64,000 nucleotides of DNA, taken from positions 62,001 to 126,000 of the forward strand of contig JAKVON010000004.1 of assembly GCA_022482785.1 (NCBI GenBank). The letters are read 5' to 3'. The position numbers and the translations under genes are program-made. Positions within the stretch are counted from its first letter, which is position 1. Each line of letters starts with the position of its first letter. Positions 53,671 through 62,727 of the stretch are shown piece after piece. The stretch comes from Atopobiaceae bacterium. GTDB lineage: Bacteria > Actinomycetota > Coriobacteriia > Coriobacteriales > Atopobiaceae. Under the pieces are notes generated by a model. The model was not told where the DNA came from and made no database searches. It worked only from the letters and a program-made list of their open reading frames with translations.

Positions 53671-54684
53671 TCAGAGGCGCGAGAGCCCGGGCTTCCATCC
53701 GCCCACGATGGACCGGCCGGACTCCGCGGCAGACACGGCGAGTGCCAGCCCGAAGAGGAGGTCGCTCTCGCTCACGGTCAGCTCGCCGAATCCCGTAACG
53801 CGCAGGAGCTCGCGGATGGCGATCGCGCCGCCCAGGATGACCGGGGCCCGCTTGGGTTGGAGCCCGATCACGTGGCGACGCTCCTCCACCGTGAGCGAGG
53901 CGAGCATCCGCTCGAGCGCGTCGACGTCCTCGCACGAGAGGGTCGCCAGGTGCACCTTATGCGAGTCGTAGGGATCGAGCTGCTCGCGCATGGCCACGAG
54001 CGAGGTGACCGTCCCTCCCACGACGCAGAGCCGCCCCGGCCTCTCGACCGCCCCGTCGCCGGCCGCGGCCTCGCTCCAGGGGACGTCCGCCCCGAGGCGC
54101 TCGCGGCAGAACGCGTGGGCCCGTGCGAGGTCGTCTGCCGTGGGAGGGTCTGCCTGCGAGAGGGCATGCTCGGTCACCCGGCGGCAGCCCACGTTGGCCG
54201 ACCTCACGTACTCGATCTCGAGCGGGTCGCCCTCCTCCCCCGCCCTGGCGAGACGTCCCACGGCAAGCTCCGTCGATCCCCCTCCGTTGTCGGCCACGCA
54301 GATGCGCTCGCCGCGAAAGTCCTGCGCCACGCCGAGGAAGGTGAGCGAGCCCTCCACCTCGCCGGGGATGACCTCGGGGGAGAGCCCGAGGCCACGCAGG
54401 CGCCCGAGCAGATCGGAGGAGTTCGAGGCGTCACGCGCCGCGCTGGTGAGCGTGCAGCATGCCCGCTCCGCGCCCGCCTCCCGCGCGGCCGCGACGAAGT
54501 CGGCGCTGCAGCTCGAGACCCGCTCGATGGCACCGGGGGCGAGGAAGCCCGTCTTGTCGACGCCCTCGCCCAGGTCACAGATGCGCGTCTGCTTGGCGAG
54601 GTGGTCGACGTGGCCGTCAGAGACCTCGGCGAGCGCAAGGCGCACCGAGACGGTCCCTATGTCGATGGCGGCTGCCAGGCCCAT
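53671..54684 (-). CDS. Ppx/GppA-family phosphatase
   Basis: A 337-residue exopolyphosphatase or pppGpp phosphatase of the ASKHA fold. Motifs are AAIDIGTVSVRLALAEV, TLTSAARDASN, the EVEGSLTFLG catalytic Glu region, VADNGGGSTELAVG and VVGGTVTSLVAM. The catalytic GGGS-type phosphate loop is intact. It would degrade polyphosphate or guanosine pentaphosphate. It starts 1 base after the DivIC-like gene's stop, in an operon with cell-division and MazG genes, as in other actinobacteria. Confidence 0.93.
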   Translation of the reverse strand: MGLAAAIDIGTVSVRLALAEVSDGHVDHLAKQTRICDLGEGVDKTGFLAPGAIERVSSCSADFVAAAREAGAERACCTLTSAARDASNSSDLLGRLRGLGLSPEVIPGEVEGSLTFLGVAQDFRGERICVADNGGGSTELAVGRLARAGEEGDPLEIEYVRSANVGCRRVTEHALSQADPPTADDLARAHAFCRERLGADVPWSEAAAGDGAVERPGRLCVVGGTVTSLVAMREQLDPYDSHKVHLATLSCEDVDALERMLASLTVEERRHVIGLQPKRAPVILGGAIAIRELLRVTGFGELTVSESDLLFGLALAVSAAESGRSIVGGWKPGLSRL

Positions 54685-54685
54685 G

Positions 54686-55561
54686 CTATCCGGCCCTGTA
54701 GAAGAAGACGGCGTCGAGGGCGCTCACGTACCACGGCAGGTCGGGGATGGAGGACTGGTCGTCGGCGATGATCGAGGTGACGGAGCTGCCGCTCGTAGAG
54801 GAGTCGTCGACCCCCTCGACGCTCACCGCAGTCTCCCCCTCCTTGACATAGCCCCTCTTGCGCGCCGCGTCCTCGATGCCCTCCTGGGTCTCGAGGGTGT
54901 TGACGTCGCCCCTGAGGGTCTCGTTGTTGGAGTTCGTCTGGTCGAGCTTGTAGGCGAGCTCCTGGGCATCGCGCGTGGCGACGTAGTAGTTGCGTGCCGG
55001 AACGTAGAGGAAGGCCAGGGCGACGACGACGCAGGCGAGCGCGATGGCCGCCTTGCGGCTTGCCCCCTGGAGCGACGCGATGCGCTCGCGGAGGGGCTTC
55101 GCCTGCCCCTCCCCCTTGGCATCGTCCTCGGACGCGCCGTCGACGCGCCCTGATGGCTTGGCCTTGCCCGCAGGCGGGACGTGCGGGAAGGGAACGTGCG
55201 GAAGTGCGTGGCGGATGCGCCTCTCCGGGGAATCGGGCCTGGCGTCATCGGAGGCCTTCGGCGGCACGGCCGCGGGTGCCGAGGCGGGGATGGCCCCCGT
55301 CCGCCGGACGGCGCCCGGATCGTCCTCGGACGCGACGGAAGCGGCCGCGTGGATCTGCGCCTTCGAGAGGGCGCCCGTGGAGTCGGCGTCGGCGCCCCTC
55401 GACTCGCTGACCTCGAACGGCATCGATGCCTTGGCCGGCTCGACGCGCTTCGTTGGCTTGCGGCGCACGGACCTCGAGGCAGGACGGCGCGAGGGGGCGG
55501 CCGATGCGGCCTTCTCCTCGGACGGAGCCTTGAATTCGATGACCTTGCCGCTTGAGCCCAT
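54686..55561 (-). CDS. DivIC/FtsB-like septum formation protein
   Basis: A 291-residue membrane protein. The first 170 residues are disordered, charged and Ala/Pro-rich; one membrane helix (AALACVVVALAFLYVPARNYY region) follows, then a coiled coil (RDAQELAYKLDQTNSNNETLRGDVNTLETQEGIEDAARKRGYVKEGE) typical of DivIC/FtsB. It would act in the divisome with FtsL/FtsQ. The long cytosolic tail is a lineage feature. It lies between mazG and ppx, the conserved actinobacterial order. Confidence 0.88.
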   Translation of the reverse strand: MGSSGKVIEFKAPSEEKAASAAPSRRPASRSVRRKPTKRVEPAKASMPFEVSESRGADADSTGALSKAQIHAAASVASEDDPGAVRRTGAIPASAPAAVPPKASDDARPDSPERRIRHALPHVPFPHVPPAGKAKPSGRVDGASEDDAKGEGQAKPLRERIASLQGASRKAAIALACVVVALAFLYVPARNYYVATRDAQELAYKLDQTNSNNETLRGDVNTLETQEGIEDAARKRGYVKEGETAVSVEGVDDSSTSGSSVTSIIADDQSSIPDLPWYVSALDAVFFYRAG

Positions 55562-55669: not shown

Positions 55670-57526
55670 TTATAGCAGATTGGGATGCTCGCGTCCCTTG
55701 GCGGAACGCCAAGCGCGCTCGAGCTCGTCGGGGGCGAGGTCCGCAAGGTCGACATGGCGTTCGGCGGCCTGCGCCTCCATGTCCGCCCAGCGCCTCCGGA
55801 ACTTCCCGGTCGACGAGCGCAAGGCCCCCTCGGCGTCGATCCCCTCGTGGCGGGCGACGTTCACGAGGGCGAACAGCAGGTCGCCGAACTCGAGCGAGGC
55901 CTCGGCCGAGCCCTGCTCCTCTGCCTCGAACTCCGAGCGCTCCTCGGCCACCTTCTCCCAGACGTCGGCGGTGGTCTCCCACTCGAAGCCGACGGCCGCC
56001 GCCTTCTTCGAGACCTTCTGGGCCTCCATGAGCGCGGGCATCGCCCGCGGCACCCCATCGAGCAGGCCGGACGGCCCCGCCGTAGCAGCCCTCTCCCTGA
56101 GCTTCACGTCGGTCCATATGCCGAGCACGTCGTCCGGGGTCTCCGCCTTGGCCGCGTCCGCCTCTCCGAACACGTGGGGGTGGCGCCTCACGAGCTTCTC
56201 GTCGAGCTCGGCGCAGACGTCGTCGATGTCGAAGCCGCCGGCGTCCGCGTCGATCTGGGCATGGAGCAGGACCTGCATGAGCACGTCGCCGATCTCCTCG
56301 CGCAGATGCGCCATGTCTCCCTCCTCGATGGCGCCGACGGCCTCGTAGGCCTCCTCGAGCATGTTCCGCGAGATGGACTCGTGCGTCTGAACCTTGTCCC
56401 AGGGACACCCGTCCGGCTGGCGGAGACGCCAGATCGTCCGGACCAGCGCGTCGAAGGCGGGATGCCCCTGCGGGGCATGGCGACGCCTCGAGGTCTGCTC
56501 GTCGGCTCGGCCGACGGCACCCCCGAGCCTGGGCTGCACGCCCATCCCCACGGCGTCACGGACGCCGCGGGCAAGGAATGCGGCCCCGCGCGCGTTCGGG
56601 TGGAGGCGGGCGTCGGCGAAGAGCGCGGCGTCATGGGGAACCAAGTCGAGGCCTTCCACGAACCTCAGGCTCCCATGCCTCTCGCACAGGCGCGAGAGCA
56701 GGGACCCCACCCATGGCAGTCCGACCCCGGAAGGCATCTCCGCATCGATGTCCGCGCGCCAGGCGGGGCCGATGACATAGGTGGGCACATCCGGATAGAC
56801 GCTTGCCAGGCGGTCGAGGTAGCGCTCGGCGGCCGCCTCGATCGCGGGGGCGGAGGGGGAATGGGCCCAGTCGTTGGTCCCATAGGCGACGGTGACGAGG
56901 GAGGGCCGCGCAACGACGTCGCCGACGTCGACAAGGGGGCCGTCGTCGAAGAGGCCGCCTGCGATGGATTGGTTCACGAGGTCCAGGCCGAGGTCGTCGG
57001 CAAGCCGGGCCGGCCAGGACAGGCTCGGGTGCCCCACGATCCAGCCCTGCGAGATGGAGTCGCCCAGCGCGAGGAGCACGGGGCTCTGGCCGATGGGCTC
57101 GACGCGCCCGTTCGCCGACAGCGGGCCCACGGCGACCCCCATGACGCACGGAAGGTAGATGCGGAGGTCGACAAGGTCATGGGCGGGGTTCTCGAACCGC
57201 GCCGCGACGCGGCCGTCCCGCACGGGGAGGGTCGTGACGAGAGTCTTCCCGACGACGACGTCGATGCCGTCGGGCACGCCGAGCGCCGAGGCGTCGCCGC
57301 CCTGCGGGAAGGTGATCCCGCAGTCGAACGAGACCTCGTCGCCGTCCGTCCTGAGGGCGAGCACGACGCCCGAGGTCGAGGTGGCATTGCCCCCATGACC
57401 TCCCGCCTCGGCCCGAGAGACCTGCTCGGGCGAGAGGCGCATCGGCCTCCACAGGCCATCGCCCGCAGGCTCGAGGCGAACCGCCCCCCGGACGAACGGG
57501 GCGAGGTCGGTGATGATGGTGGGCAC
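55670..57526 (-). CDS. SGNH-hydrolase/MazG fusion protein
   Basis: A 618-residue protein joining two enzymes in one frame. Residues about 1-345 form a bacterial SGNH esterase with an N-terminal beta domain: block I LALGDSISQGW, block III VAYGTNDW and block V DARLHPNA. Residues about 370-618 are a MazG pyrophosphohydrolase with two domains: WRLRQPDGCPWDKVQTHESI, LEEAYEAVGAIEEGD, EEIGDVLMQVLLHA and the second EFGDLLFALVNVARHEGID. GAGAGGAGAG precedes the GTG start at 57526; a longer ATG start at 57598 lacks one. MazG cleans up nucleotide pools; the fused esterase's link is unclear. Confidence 0.85.
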   Translation of the reverse strand: MPTIITDLAPFVRGAVRLEPAGDGLWRPMRLSPEQVSRAEAGGHGGNATSTSGVVLALRTDGDEVSFDCGITFPQGGDASALGVPDGIDVVVGKTLVTTLPVRDGRVAARFENPAHDLVDLRIYLPCVMGVAVGPLSANGRVEPIGQSPVLLALGDSISQGWIVGHPSLSWPARLADDLGLDLVNQSIAGGLFDDGPLVDVGDVVARPSLVTVAYGTNDWAHSPSAPAIEAAAERYLDRLASVYPDVPTYVIGPAWRADIDAEMPSGVGLPWVGSLLSRLCERHGSLRFVEGLDLVPHDAALFADARLHPNARGAAFLARGVRDAVGMGVQPRLGGAVGRADEQTSRRRHAPQGHPAFDALVRTIWRLRQPDGCPWDKVQTHESISRNMLEEAYEAVGAIEEGDMAHLREEIGDVLMQVLLHAQIDADAGGFDIDDVCAELDEKLVRRHPHVFGEADAAKAETPDDVLGIWTDVKLRERAATAGPSGLLDGVPRAMPALMEAQKVSKKAAAVGFEWETTADVWEKVAEERSEFEAEEQGSAEASLEFGDLLFALVNVARHEGIDAEGALRSSTGKFRRRWADMEAQAAERHVDLADLAPDELERAWRSAKGREHPNLL

Positions 57527-57601
57527 GGGGCTCTCCTCTCGCAGAGGTTCGAGACGCCCCAATTGTATCCCCGTCCCAGGCACCGGAATGCCCCTCACGC
57601 A

Positions 57602-57629
57602 TTTCCTATCATGCGGTAGGTATTATACT
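57602..57629 (+). promoter_or_regulatory. Possible promoter of the peptide-binding lipoprotein gene
   Basis: A TATACT -10 box (57624-57629) lies 16 bases after a weak -35 (TTTCCT, 57602-57607). It is the only AT-rich stretch in the short divergent gap. Confidence 0.4.
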
Positions 57630-57674: not shown

Positions 57675-59284
57675 ATGGAACGCAACCAGCTCACTAACGT
57701 CACGCGACGCGGCTTTCTCCGGATGGCGGCCTGTGCCGCCGGGGCCGTGGGGGCGCTTCCCCTCGCCGGGTGCGCCGCGCAGGGAGGCTCCGGGACCCAG
57801 ACGAGCCAGAGCGTCACCTACGCCCTGAACGAGAGCCCCCAGGCGCTCGACCCCGCCCTCGTGAACGACTTCGGGTCTCTCGAGCTCTGTGCCAACCTCT
57901 ACGAGGGGCTCTTCCGCTTCAAGGGTGAGACCTGCGACGTTGAGCCCTGCCTCGCGGAGAGCTATCAGGTATCCGACGACGGCCTCACCTACACCTTCAG
58001 GCTTCGCGAGGGGGTCAGGTTCCACGACGGGACCGACTTCGACGCCGCGGCCGTGGTCACGAACTTCGAGCGGCAGATGGACGGGCACGCCACCTCCGGA
58101 ATGGGCTACGCCGACTTCGTCTTCGGATCCGACGAGACGGGCGTGGGGGTGAAGTCGGTGGTCGCCACCGACGCGCGCACCGTCACCTGCACGATGCGCT
58201 CCGCCTGCACCCCGTTCCTCCGCAACCTCGCCATGGCCCTGGGAACGCCCATCGTCTCCCCCGCCGCGCTTGCCAAGGCCGGCGGAGACCTCTCGGCGGC
58301 CCCATGCGGCACCGGTCCCTACATGCTCGACAGCTGGGAGAAGGACGCGACCGTCACGCTCAAGGCCTTCGACGGCTACTGGGACAAGGACAACGTCCCC
58401 AAGACCCCTACCGTCGTCTTCCGCATCATGCCGGAGTCCGCGGCCCGCGTGACCGCCCTCTCGAACAACGAGGTGGACATGATCACGGCGGTCGAGACCA
58501 ACTCGGCCCCGACCGTCAGGGCCAACGGCGACGACATCGACGCCATCGACGGCCTCAACGTGAACTACCTCTGCTTCAACACCGCGAGCAGCAAGCTCTC
58601 GAGCGTCGGGGCGCGCACGGCCGTGTGTCAGGCCATCGACGTCGCCCAGATGGTGAAGACCCTCTACGGCGACTACGCCGACGCCGCCAACTCGCTCATG
58701 CCGTCGTTCATGGCCTCCTACGTGCAGGACGTGAGCTACCCCTCCTACGATCCGGATGCCGCCAAGGGCCGCCTTCGCCGCCGCCGGCATCACCGACCTG
58801 GTGGCGATCACCTACACCACGGCGATGCAGTACAACCCTGCAGGCGGCCAGGCCCTCGCCGAGTCGCTCCAGGGCTACCTCGCGAAGTGCGGCGTCAGCC
58901 TCACGATCAACTCGTACGACTGGGCCACGTTCCGGACGAAGCGCAAGGAGGAGTACTTCGACCTCGGCTTCTACGGCTGGGCGGGCGACAACGGCGACCC
59001 GGACAACTTCATGAACCTCTTCGCGTCCACGAGCGGCGTCGCCTCCATGTCCCACTTCGCGGACGACACCTACGACAGGCTTGTCGAGGAGGGCATCAGG
59101 ACGCCCGACGGCTCGGCACGCGACGACATCTACCACCAGCTCGAGAAGAGGCTCGCGCAGCTCCTGCCCTGCCTGCCCCTCTCGCATGCCAAGACGGTCT
59201 GCGCCTACAAGCCCTCCGTGACCGGGTTCACGATGCATCCCCACCGGCTGGAGCAAGCTCGCCGGCGTCGCGAAGAGGGCGTAG
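57675..59284 (+). CDS. ABC-type oligopeptide-binding lipoprotein (SBP_bac_5), frameshifted as sequenced
   Basis: A 535-residue substrate-binding protein. The N terminus TRRGFLRMAACAAGAVGALPLAGC has a twin-arginine signal and a lipobox. Family segments are YALNESPQALDPALVNDFGSLELCANLYEGLF, DDGLTYTFRLREGVRFHDGTDFDAAAVV, CGTGPYML and YGWAGDNGDPDNFM. Extra bases in GGG at 58766-58768 and CCCC at 59239-59242 break it; correction gives 536 codons ending WSKLAGVAKRA. No permease or ATPase genes adjoin, so it is an orphan receptor. GGAAAGGAAGAGGC precedes the ATG. Confidence 0.9.
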
Positions 59285-59288
59285 GGCC

Positions 59289-62200
59289 CTACTCCTCGTC
59301 GTCGCCGCCCAACTCCTCGAGCACGCCGAGGGCGGCAGGCATGACCTGCTCCGCAGAGATGCGGAACGGGTAGGCGAGCTTGTGGCTCTTGGGATAGACC
59401 AGGGCCCCCTTGGACTTGAGCTTGGGGATGAGGTTCCGCGCCACGTCGACTCCCTGGTAGACGAGACGCCCTCCCGTGAGCGACACGGAGGTCACGCCGA
59501 GGCGCGACGCCCGGATGCGCACGCGGGCGCGGTCGAAGAGGTTCTTCCCCGCCAGGGGAAGCGCGCCGTCGGCCTCCTCGCACTCGCGCTCGAGCGCGTC
59601 CACCTCGGCGAGCTCGGTGGCCGAGGCCAGCCTGCGGTAGACCAGCACGCGCCGGTCCACGTCGGGGAGGTATTCGTCCGCCAGGTAGAAGTCGGCGGGA
59701 AGGTTGATGGTGACCTCGACCTCCGCCACGTCCGCGGACTCCCCACGCGCCTCCGAGACCGCCTCGCCGAGCATCTGGGTGAACAGGTCGAAGCCCACGC
59801 TCGAGAGGTTGCCGTGCTGCTCGGCCCCCATGAGCGAGCCGGCGCCGCGAATCTCGAGGTCGCGCATCGCGATGCGCATGCCGCTGCCCAGCTCCTGGAA
59901 CTCGTTGATGGCAGTGAGGCGCGCCGTGGCCTCGGGGGTGAGGGGCAGCTCGCCGGGGAACATGAAGTAGGCGTATGCCTGGATGCGGCCACGTCCCACG
60001 CGGCCCTTGAGCTGGTAGAGCTGGGCCAGGCCCAGACGCTGCGAGTCCTCGATGATGAGGGTGTTGGTGTGGGGGTTGTCGATGCCGCTCTCGATGATGG
60101 TCGTGGCCACGAGCACGTCGATCTCGTGCTCGGTGAAGCTCAGCATGACGTCCTCGACCTCGCGCGCGCTCATCTGCCCGTGCGCGATGCCCACGCGGGC
60201 CTCGGGCGCCGCCTGGTTGACGCGCTCGACCGCGTCCTCGATCGTGGTCACCCGGTTCGAGACGTAGTAGACCTGCCCCCCGCGGGCGACCTCGGAGCGG
60301 ATGGCGGCGGAGACCTTGTCGGGGTCGTACTCCCCCACCATGACCCTTCACGGGCAGGCGTCCCGGCGGCGGGGTCATGATGAGCGACATGTCGCGGACC
60401 CCGGACATCGCCATCTGCATGGTGCGGGGGATGGGCGTGGCCGAGAGGGTGAGCACGTCGACCTGCTCGCGGATGTTCTTGAGCTGCTCCTTGGCCTGGA
60501 CGCCGAAGCGCTGCTCCTCGTCGACGATCACGAGGCCCAGGTCGTGCGGGTTTATGTCCGCGGAGAGGAGGCGATGGGTCCCCACGAGCACGTCCACCGA
60601 GCCGTCGGCGAATCCCTCGAGGGCGGCGCGCTGCTGGGCGGGGGTCACGAAGCGCGAGAGGACGGAGACGCGCTTGTCGAAGGAGGCGAAGCGGGAGAAG
60701 AAGGTCTCGAAGTGCTGCTCCGCGAGGATCGTCGTGGGGCAGAGGACCATGACCTGGCGGTCGTCGCCCACGCACTTGAAGGCCGCGCGGAGGGCCACCT
60801 CGGTCTTGCCGAAGCCCACGTCGCCGCAGAGGAGACGGTCCATGGGCTTGGGGGCCTCCATGTCGGCCTTGATGTCGGCGAGGGCTGTGAGCCTGGTCCG
60901 GCGTGAGCTCGTAGGGAAAGCTCGACTCCATCTCGAGCTGGGCCGGCGAATCCGGCGGGAAGGCGTGGCCCGCGACCGAGGCGCGCCTGGTGTAGAGGTC
61001 GACGAGGTCGAAGGCGAGGCGCTTCGCGGACTTGCGGGCCTTTCCCGTGGCGCGCGACCAGTCGGCGGTGTTGAGGCGGGTGAGGCGAGGCGAGCTCCCG
61101 TCCGGGCCCACGTAGCGCGTGATGCGGTCGACCTGCTCGAGCGGCACGAAGAGCTTGTCCCCGCCCGCATACTCCAGGAGGAAGTAGTCGCGCTCGCGTC
61201 CCTGCCACCTCCTGCCGAACGATGTCTGAGAAGAGCGCGATGCCGTGCGTGGCGTGGACCACGTAGTCGCCCGGCTTGAACGGGAAGGTGACCGAGGTAG
61301 GGGTCCACCCGCCGGCGCGTCTTGTGGCTGGCCATGCGCGCCGTGAGGTCGGATATCGAGAGGACCGCCAGGCGCGCCGTGGGAACGACGATGCCCGCCG
61401 GGACGGGGGCGTCGAAGAACGTGACGCGGCCTTCCGCCAGCGGGGTCGCGGAGCCCACGGTGCCTGGGACGTTCTCGGGAGCCTGGGCGAGCGACTCGCC
61501 GAAGGGGATGTGCTCGTCGGTGAAGGCGAGCTCCAGCGAGGAGCGGCCCGAGCGCTCGGGCACGGCGAAGCAGACGGCGCACCCGTCCGAGACGAACTGC
61601 CTCACGCGCCCCAGGAGCTTGGCGTCCGAGCCGGCGATGGCGGGCTGGCGCACCTGGAGCTCGGCGGTGGCCGAGCCGCCCGCCCTCATGATCGAGGCGA
61701 AGGAGAGGCGCTGCTGGGTCCCGAAGTCGAGGTCGCGTGGCATGACGAAGAGGCCCGAGGCCTTCGCGCGGGCCGCGCCTGCCGCGGCGGCTATCTCGTC
61801 GCCCGCGCGCTGGCAGTCGTCGAAGAGAGCGCGGGGCTCGGCGAGGCAGACGAGCGTCTCGGGGCAGAGGTGCGCGAGCGGGGTGGCGCTCGCGCCGTAC
61901 AGCACGGGAAGGTAGCGGTCGAGCGTCGGGGACGACGAGCCCGACTCCATGAGCTCGAGGTCCGCGGCGACGTGGCTGTCCTCCTGGGCCTTGGCATAGA
62001 GCGCCTTGCGGGCGCGGGCGACCGTCTCGGGCGTGAGGGCTATCTCGCGGCAGGGCGAGACGGTGACCTCCTCGAGCTCGCCGATGGTCTGGCCGGTCGC
62101 GGCGACCATGCGGCGCACGTGGTCGATCTCGTCGCCGAAGAACTCGATGCGCACCGGGCTCGAGGCCTGGGCGGGAAACACGTCGACGGCATCCCCGTGG

Positions 62201-62727
62201 ACGTGGAACTGCCCTGGGGAGTCGACGGCTCCCTCGTCGGCATAGCCGAGGCCCACGAGCAGCGCGCCCATGTCCTCGAACGGGACCTCGTCCCCCACCG
62301 AGAAGGTCGAGCTCGCGAAGTAGCCCGAGCCGACGGGAGGCACGCAGCGCATGAGCGAGCGGGCGCTCGCGACCACGATGACGGGCTCGGCGGCCGAGAG
62401 CCGCGCGAGGGAGCGGCAGCGGGCGCCGATGACGGCGTCGTCGGCGGCCACGTCGGCCCAGGGCCAGTCCTTGCGCTCGGGGAACCGACCCACGCTCCCC
62501 AGGCCGAGCCAGGCGGCAAGCGTGCGCGACGCCCTGTCGGCAGCCTCCTCGCCCGAGACAACGAACAGGCAGGGGCGGGGATGCTCCGCCCAGAGGGCGG
62601 CGAGGAGCAGTGGCCGCGCGGACTGCGCGACGGCCAGCGTCGCGTCATGGCCGTCCGCGAGCTCACGGGCAATCGCCGCGTACTCGGGGGAGGTCCTCAG
62701 TTGTCGTGCGACCCTGTGAACGAACAT
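59289..62727 (-). CDS. mfd: Transcription-repair coupling factor, frameshifted as sequenced
   Basis: A 1144-residue DNA translocase that removes stalled RNA polymerase and recruits UvrA. In order: UvrB-like N-terminal modules (PVRIEFFGDEIDHVR), the RNA-polymerase-interacting domain (KPGDYVVHATHGIALF...DYFLLEYAGGDKLFVPLEQ), helicase motifs LLCGDVGFGKTEVALRAAF, VDEEQRFG, TLSATPIPRT, ATTIIESGID and QLKGRVGR, and the C-terminal TRCF domain. Four extra bases (60344-60346, 60892-60893, about 61210 and 61300) break the frame; correction gives 1145 codons. As a core repair gene, real inactivation is unlikely. The convergent lipoprotein gene ends 4 bases away. Confidence 0.93.

Follow-up and report, generated by a model that had tools for sequence, protein, structure and literature searches.

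An SGNH hydrolase fused in frame to a complete two-domain MazG is conserved in part of the family Atopobiaceae

A single gene of an Atopobiaceae bacterium encodes an SGNH/GDSL hydrolase followed in the same frame by a full two-domain MazG, and this join is real and maintained by selection in 11 genera of the family. The gene occupies positions 55670 to 57526 of the minus strand of the window, by which we mean the whole stretch of 64,000 nucleotides analyzed here (assembly GCA_022482785.1, contig JAKVON010000004.1). It probably produces one bifunctional cytosolic protein, the product of a single-origin fusion that was later lost in some lineages. The fusion appears to be undescribed, both halves being familiar enzymes: neither an SGNH partner of MazG nor SsfX3 together with GDSL was found in the literature searched, most subscription journals lying outside it, and the one paper that names both MazG and GDSL is unrelated. 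An apparently undescribed partner is thus added to the known MazG fusions, and a conserved two-enzyme protein replaces a housekeeping enzyme in part of a family that includes animal-associated species.

Gene and reading frame

The minus-strand frame of the fusion is open from a stop at 57625 to a stop at 55672. The start at GTG 57526, giving a protein of 618 residues, was borne out by a probable ribosome-binding site, AGGAG, upstream of it at 57533 to 57537 (minus strand), and it is the best-supported start; a longer one, GTG 57598, lacks an AGGAG-like site. Residues are numbered here along the 642-residue frame that starts at GTG 57598; subtracting 24 gives the position in the 618-residue protein. 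The original prediction had also held that every frame is free of stop codons near the junction, which is incorrect, since the third minus-strand frame stops at 56558 and 56633, and the only open minus-strand frames across 56440 to 56520 are that of the fusion and one alternative. The fusion frame itself is clean, and these stops do not affect the conclusion about the fusion. No strongly hydrophobic segment was found at the N terminus of the protein, consistent with a cytosolic location.

Domain architecture of the fusion protein

Family searches confirmed that an SGNH hydrolase and a full two-domain MazG lie in a single chain, which is matched by Pfam Lipase_GDSL_2 (PF13472; E value of 1.4e-16), by Pfam MazG (E value of 9.4e-30), and by NCBIfam TIGR00444, the last spanning both MazG domains at residues 389 to 634 of 642 (model positions 2 to 248 of 248) and scoring 277.6 bits (cut-off, 148.3). 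All blocks of the SGNH superfamily, I (GDS), II (G), III (GxN(D)), and V (D..H), are present and in order within the hydrolase domain (56564 to 57088, minus strand, as are all motifs below). In an alignment of 34 full-length fusions, block I (GDSISQGW, 57041 to 57064) contains the putative nucleophile Ser181 within an invariant GDSI, followed by invariant Gln184 and Gly185; block II (NQSIAG, 56957 to 56974) has invariant N, Q, and final G, the last being Gly214; and block III (GTND, 56870 to 56881), with Asn242, is invariant throughout. Block V (DARLHP, 56597 to 56614) has an invariant D (Asp329) and P, and its His333 is kept in 33 of the 34 proteins, the remaining one showing an H-to-Y change. 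The spacing of this block is DxxxH (DxxxHP) rather than DxxH.

Upstream of the hydrolase domain lies a beta-sandwich-type region (57089 to 57511, minus strand) that resembles SsfX3_N or GxDLY. Its Pfam matches are weak: SsfX3_N is found in 5 of 12 members (best E value of 8.7e-4) with scores of 15.9 to 16.1 bits, below the cut-off of 27 bits, and GxDLY is found in 4 of 12. In a profile search, the SGNH unit together with its N-terminal region aligns over its full length with SsfX3 (PDB 3skv; E value of 4.2e-16), a GDSL enzyme that has an N-terminal beta-sandwich and is its nearest solved relative over that length, followed by TesA-type thioesterases. SsfX3 differs in that it is not fused to MazG, and its identity to the fused SGNH is remote. 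It is a biosynthetic-cluster enzyme of Streptomyces, where it acts as an acyltransferase in the biosynthesis of tetracycline SF2575. An AlphaFold model of the fusion is good for MazG, but its SGNH half is of low confidence (mean pLDDT of 60.8, with only two SGNH rows in the alignment), so the SGNH fold assignment rests on sequence profiles.

The MazG half (55697 to 56446, minus strand) matches PDB 3cra/3crc with an E value of 2.7e-60, and its nearest solved relative, 3cra, is the MazG of Escherichia coli. Both proteins have the two MazG domains in full and every metal-binding residue, and E. coli MazG lacks the 350-residue N-terminal SGNH unit. The Glu and Asp residues of the metal-binding motif in the first domain (EEAYE...EEIGD, 56285 to 56356, minus strand) are invariant in the 34 fusions, as are Glu553, Glu556, Glu570, and Asp573 of the motif in the second (ERSE...EFGD, 55880 to 55942, minus strand). 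Extra domains at the N terminus of MazG are already known. YabN (NF052436) also carries an unrelated enzyme domain N-terminal to MazG, but its partner is a methyltransferase and not an SGNH hydrolase; the fusion scores 292 bits against its profile, far below the cut-off of 525, and only the MazG part is matched (profile positions 229 to 485). The MazG of Mycobacterium tuberculosis possesses an extra N-terminal alpha/beta region required for activity, which is about 85 residues long and is not an SGNH hydrolase (PMC10014863).

No other MazG was detected in the source genome, in which the full-length fusion gene was found once; as this draft is 85.5% complete, another mazG may have been missed. 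Among the relatives, the two domains of one fused MazG (L171 in G061) seem to be separated by an insertion of about 80 residues, and smaller insertions appear in G020 and others.

Distribution and conservation

The survey sample comprised 140 Atopobiaceae genomes of 35 genera, 138 of which gave some match. The fusion recurs in related genomes: SGNH and MazG share one stop-free frame in 35 of the 140 genomes and 11 of the 35 genera. These include four single-contig assemblies, G058, G059, G019, and G027 (100, 99, 96, and 99% complete, respectively), and the same fusion is carried by a public record, RUG13877 (L019). A stop/start pair between the domains, set beforehand as the finding that would count against the fusion, was sought in these orthologues; none was found, and the fusion stands. 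In the other loci that were inspected, MazG lacks an SGNH partner. Decayed SGNH sequence in front of these unfused genes was considered and ruled out, since two HMMs found none in the 3 kb upstream of MazG in the loci examined. Among the matches listed from 398 genomes of the class, a list cut off at low scores, every full-length one is in Atopobiaceae, and only unfused MazG was seen elsewhere; a search of other Actinomycetota for the SGNH unit returned remote SGNH proteins only.

Across the 11 genera, the fusion sequences have diverged to 48 to 58% identity. In ten close pairs, dN/dS is 0.09 to 0.24 for the beta-sandwich, 0.06 to 0.19 for SGNH, and 0.08 to 0.21 for MazG. Together with the invariant residues, these ratios rule out a recent domain accretion without selection. 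The inter-domain stretch including the linker (56447 to 56563, minus strand) gives 0.03 to 0.59 in the same pairs, indicating that the linker is translated coding sequence. Between block V and the MazG core, 61 to 137 amino acids are present in different fusions, variable in sequence and always in frame.

A sister SGNH clade with other fusion partners

A second SGNH clade, which most of the family's genomes carry, is the sister of the fused clade. In most loci examined, its members share a frame with a GNAT acetyltransferase to which they are fused (L172 to L178 and L185 to L214; FR47, E value of 1.1e-11); in other loci they stand alone, and in three genomes (G018, G027, and G028; L219, L222, and L225) their fusion partner is a domain of about 450 residues. 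The SGNH-GNAT proteins have the same N-terminal region and likewise place SGNH N-terminal to another enzyme; they differ in having the GNAT partner, in residing at another locus, and in block III, which is GxNY and not GTND in those sequences that were read. The domain of about 450 residues matches no Pfam family (best E value of about 0.1) and had no match in a phmmer search of PDB, and the label ATP-grasp is only a guess. Its homologues are separate genes in many Coriobacteriia, and in several genomes one lies just downstream of the SGNH-GNAT gene. Given the two partners of the sister clade, the SGNH unit is a recurrent fusion module, which has formed at least three different fusions within Atopobiaceae. 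A dGTPase gene (dgt, named by reading its sequence) lies near the sister SGNH in about half of the loci fetched. At the sister locus of the source genome itself (L179, G000:C11), SGNH and GNAT are in different frames, unlike in most relatives, by either an assembly frameshift or a true split.

Origin of the fusion

In the SGNH tree, the fused SGNH halves are monophyletic (support of 100/98), and no unfused member of their clade was seen. Synteny places fused and unfused MazG at one common locus, mfd–mazG–ftsB–ppx. A patchy picture comes from the MazG tree, which requires seven state changes and has weak deep branches. The single SGNH clade and the one locus for both MazG forms are best fitted by one ancient fusion followed by several losses, and this history, with losses rather than transfers, would accommodate both trees. 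Given the seven changes and weak deep branches of the MazG tree, the fusion may alternatively have been gained repeatedly, or the fused gene may have been transferred. In the preferred history of one fusion, the SGNH gene would have been duplicated in or before the ancestor of Atopobiaceae, one copy would have been placed before mazG at the mfd–mazG–ftsB–ppx locus and then joined to it in frame, and the SGNH half would later have been dropped in several genera.

Proposed function and alternative readings

Both active sites seem intact, making a two-headed cytosolic enzyme the likeliest reading, in which the two activities are predicted from sequence. The MazG half would serve in house-cleaning, converting (d)NTP to (d)NMP and pyrophosphate. 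The other half, an SsfX3-like SGNH serine hydrolase, would cleave an acyl ester or thioester bond in some small molecule of the cytosol, with Ser181, His333, and Asp329 performing catalysis and Gly214 and Asn242 forming the oxyanion hole. Since M. tuberculosis MazG is active as a dimer (PMC10014863), the fusion is expected to dimerize too, and each particle would then bear no fewer than two SGNH heads, attached by flexible linkers. The protein offers a way into finding the substrate of a subfamily of SsfX3-like cytosolic SGNH enzymes that has repeatedly been joined to other enzymes.

Are the two activities linked? We give about even chances to the reading that the fusion merely coexpresses or carries two unrelated enzymes with no substrate in common. 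The long and fast-evolving linker, the joining of the same kind of SGNH to different partners, and the absence of the SGNH half from most genera while MazG stays all speak for it. Against it, the fused state has been kept through long divergence in 11 genera, and an SGNH clade of which every member seen is fused would be harder to reconcile with mere carriage.

For the chemistry of the SGNH half, the kinship with SsfX3, its closest solved relative over the whole length, brings up an acyltransferase rather than a hydrolase. We hold this to be unlikely, though worth keeping in mind, as the similarity is remote (phmmer E value of 3e-7) and TesA-type hydrolases match the catalytic domain almost equally well. 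Somewhat less likely still is a coupled house-cleaning enzyme, whose SGNH half would strip the acyl group from acylated nucleotides, nucleotide sugars, or nucleosides and whose MazG half would remove the resulting triphosphate, both steps serving a single class of damaged or by-product nucleotides. Fusions often unite steps of one pathway, and with dgt near the sister SGNH, both SGNH paralogues stand beside (d)NTP-hydrolyzing enzymes. The original suggestion, that removing a nucleotide or nucleotide-sugar by-product might be coupled to de-esterification, has in this dgt proximity its single indirect hint. The dgt neighborhood may nevertheless be plain housekeeping synteny; many relatives have MazG without SGNH, and the sister SGNH is fused also to GNAT and to an unrelated uncharacterized domain. 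If the activities are linked, the protein would point to a so far unrecognized step in the clean-up of acylated nucleotides or of something related. An extended version, to which we assign a slightly lower probability again, treats the SGNH unit as a family-specific, fusion-prone module that acts on one class of acylated cytosolic metabolites with MazG, GNAT, or the uncharacterized domain of about 450 residues; joined to MazG, it would clear acylated nucleotides in two steps.

It is very improbable that one gene yields two proteins by an internal translation start or cleavage of the linker: the linker looks disordered and in some fusions its region contains an in-frame ATG, GTG, or TTG, but such starts are not conserved, one fusion having none and several just one, and the sites upstream of them are poor. 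An assembly or sequencing artefact, in which an indel removed a stop, is effectively dismissed, for although the adjacent mfd lies in several frames in the source assembly, 34 other genomes have the same fusion, four of them in single contigs, and the orthologues, with synteny, dN/dS, and the invariant catalytic residues, uphold the original prediction that no local indel created it.

Neighboring genes in the window

Two conserved neighbors, both named by reading their sequences, follow the fusion gene on the minus strand: an FtsB/DivIC-like septum protein (54686 to 55561; synteny clusters 3, 23, and 28) and a Ppx/GppA-like phosphatase (53671 to 54684; synteny cluster 1). The conserved upstream neighbor, mfd (59295 to 62727, minus strand), was located by tblastn with a complete relative, with matches in three frames. 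Here, mfd is in at least five pieces in three frames, with shifts near 61285, 61200, 60905, and 60340, which suggests assembly indel errors or a decayed gene. The mfd side of the mazG locus often includes a Gfo/Idh/MocA-type gene, again named by reading its sequence. In the window, an extracellular solute-binding protein of an ABC transporter, also recognized by reading, lies between mfd and the fusion gene at about 57676 to 59373 (plus strand), and its frame appears to shift near 58750.
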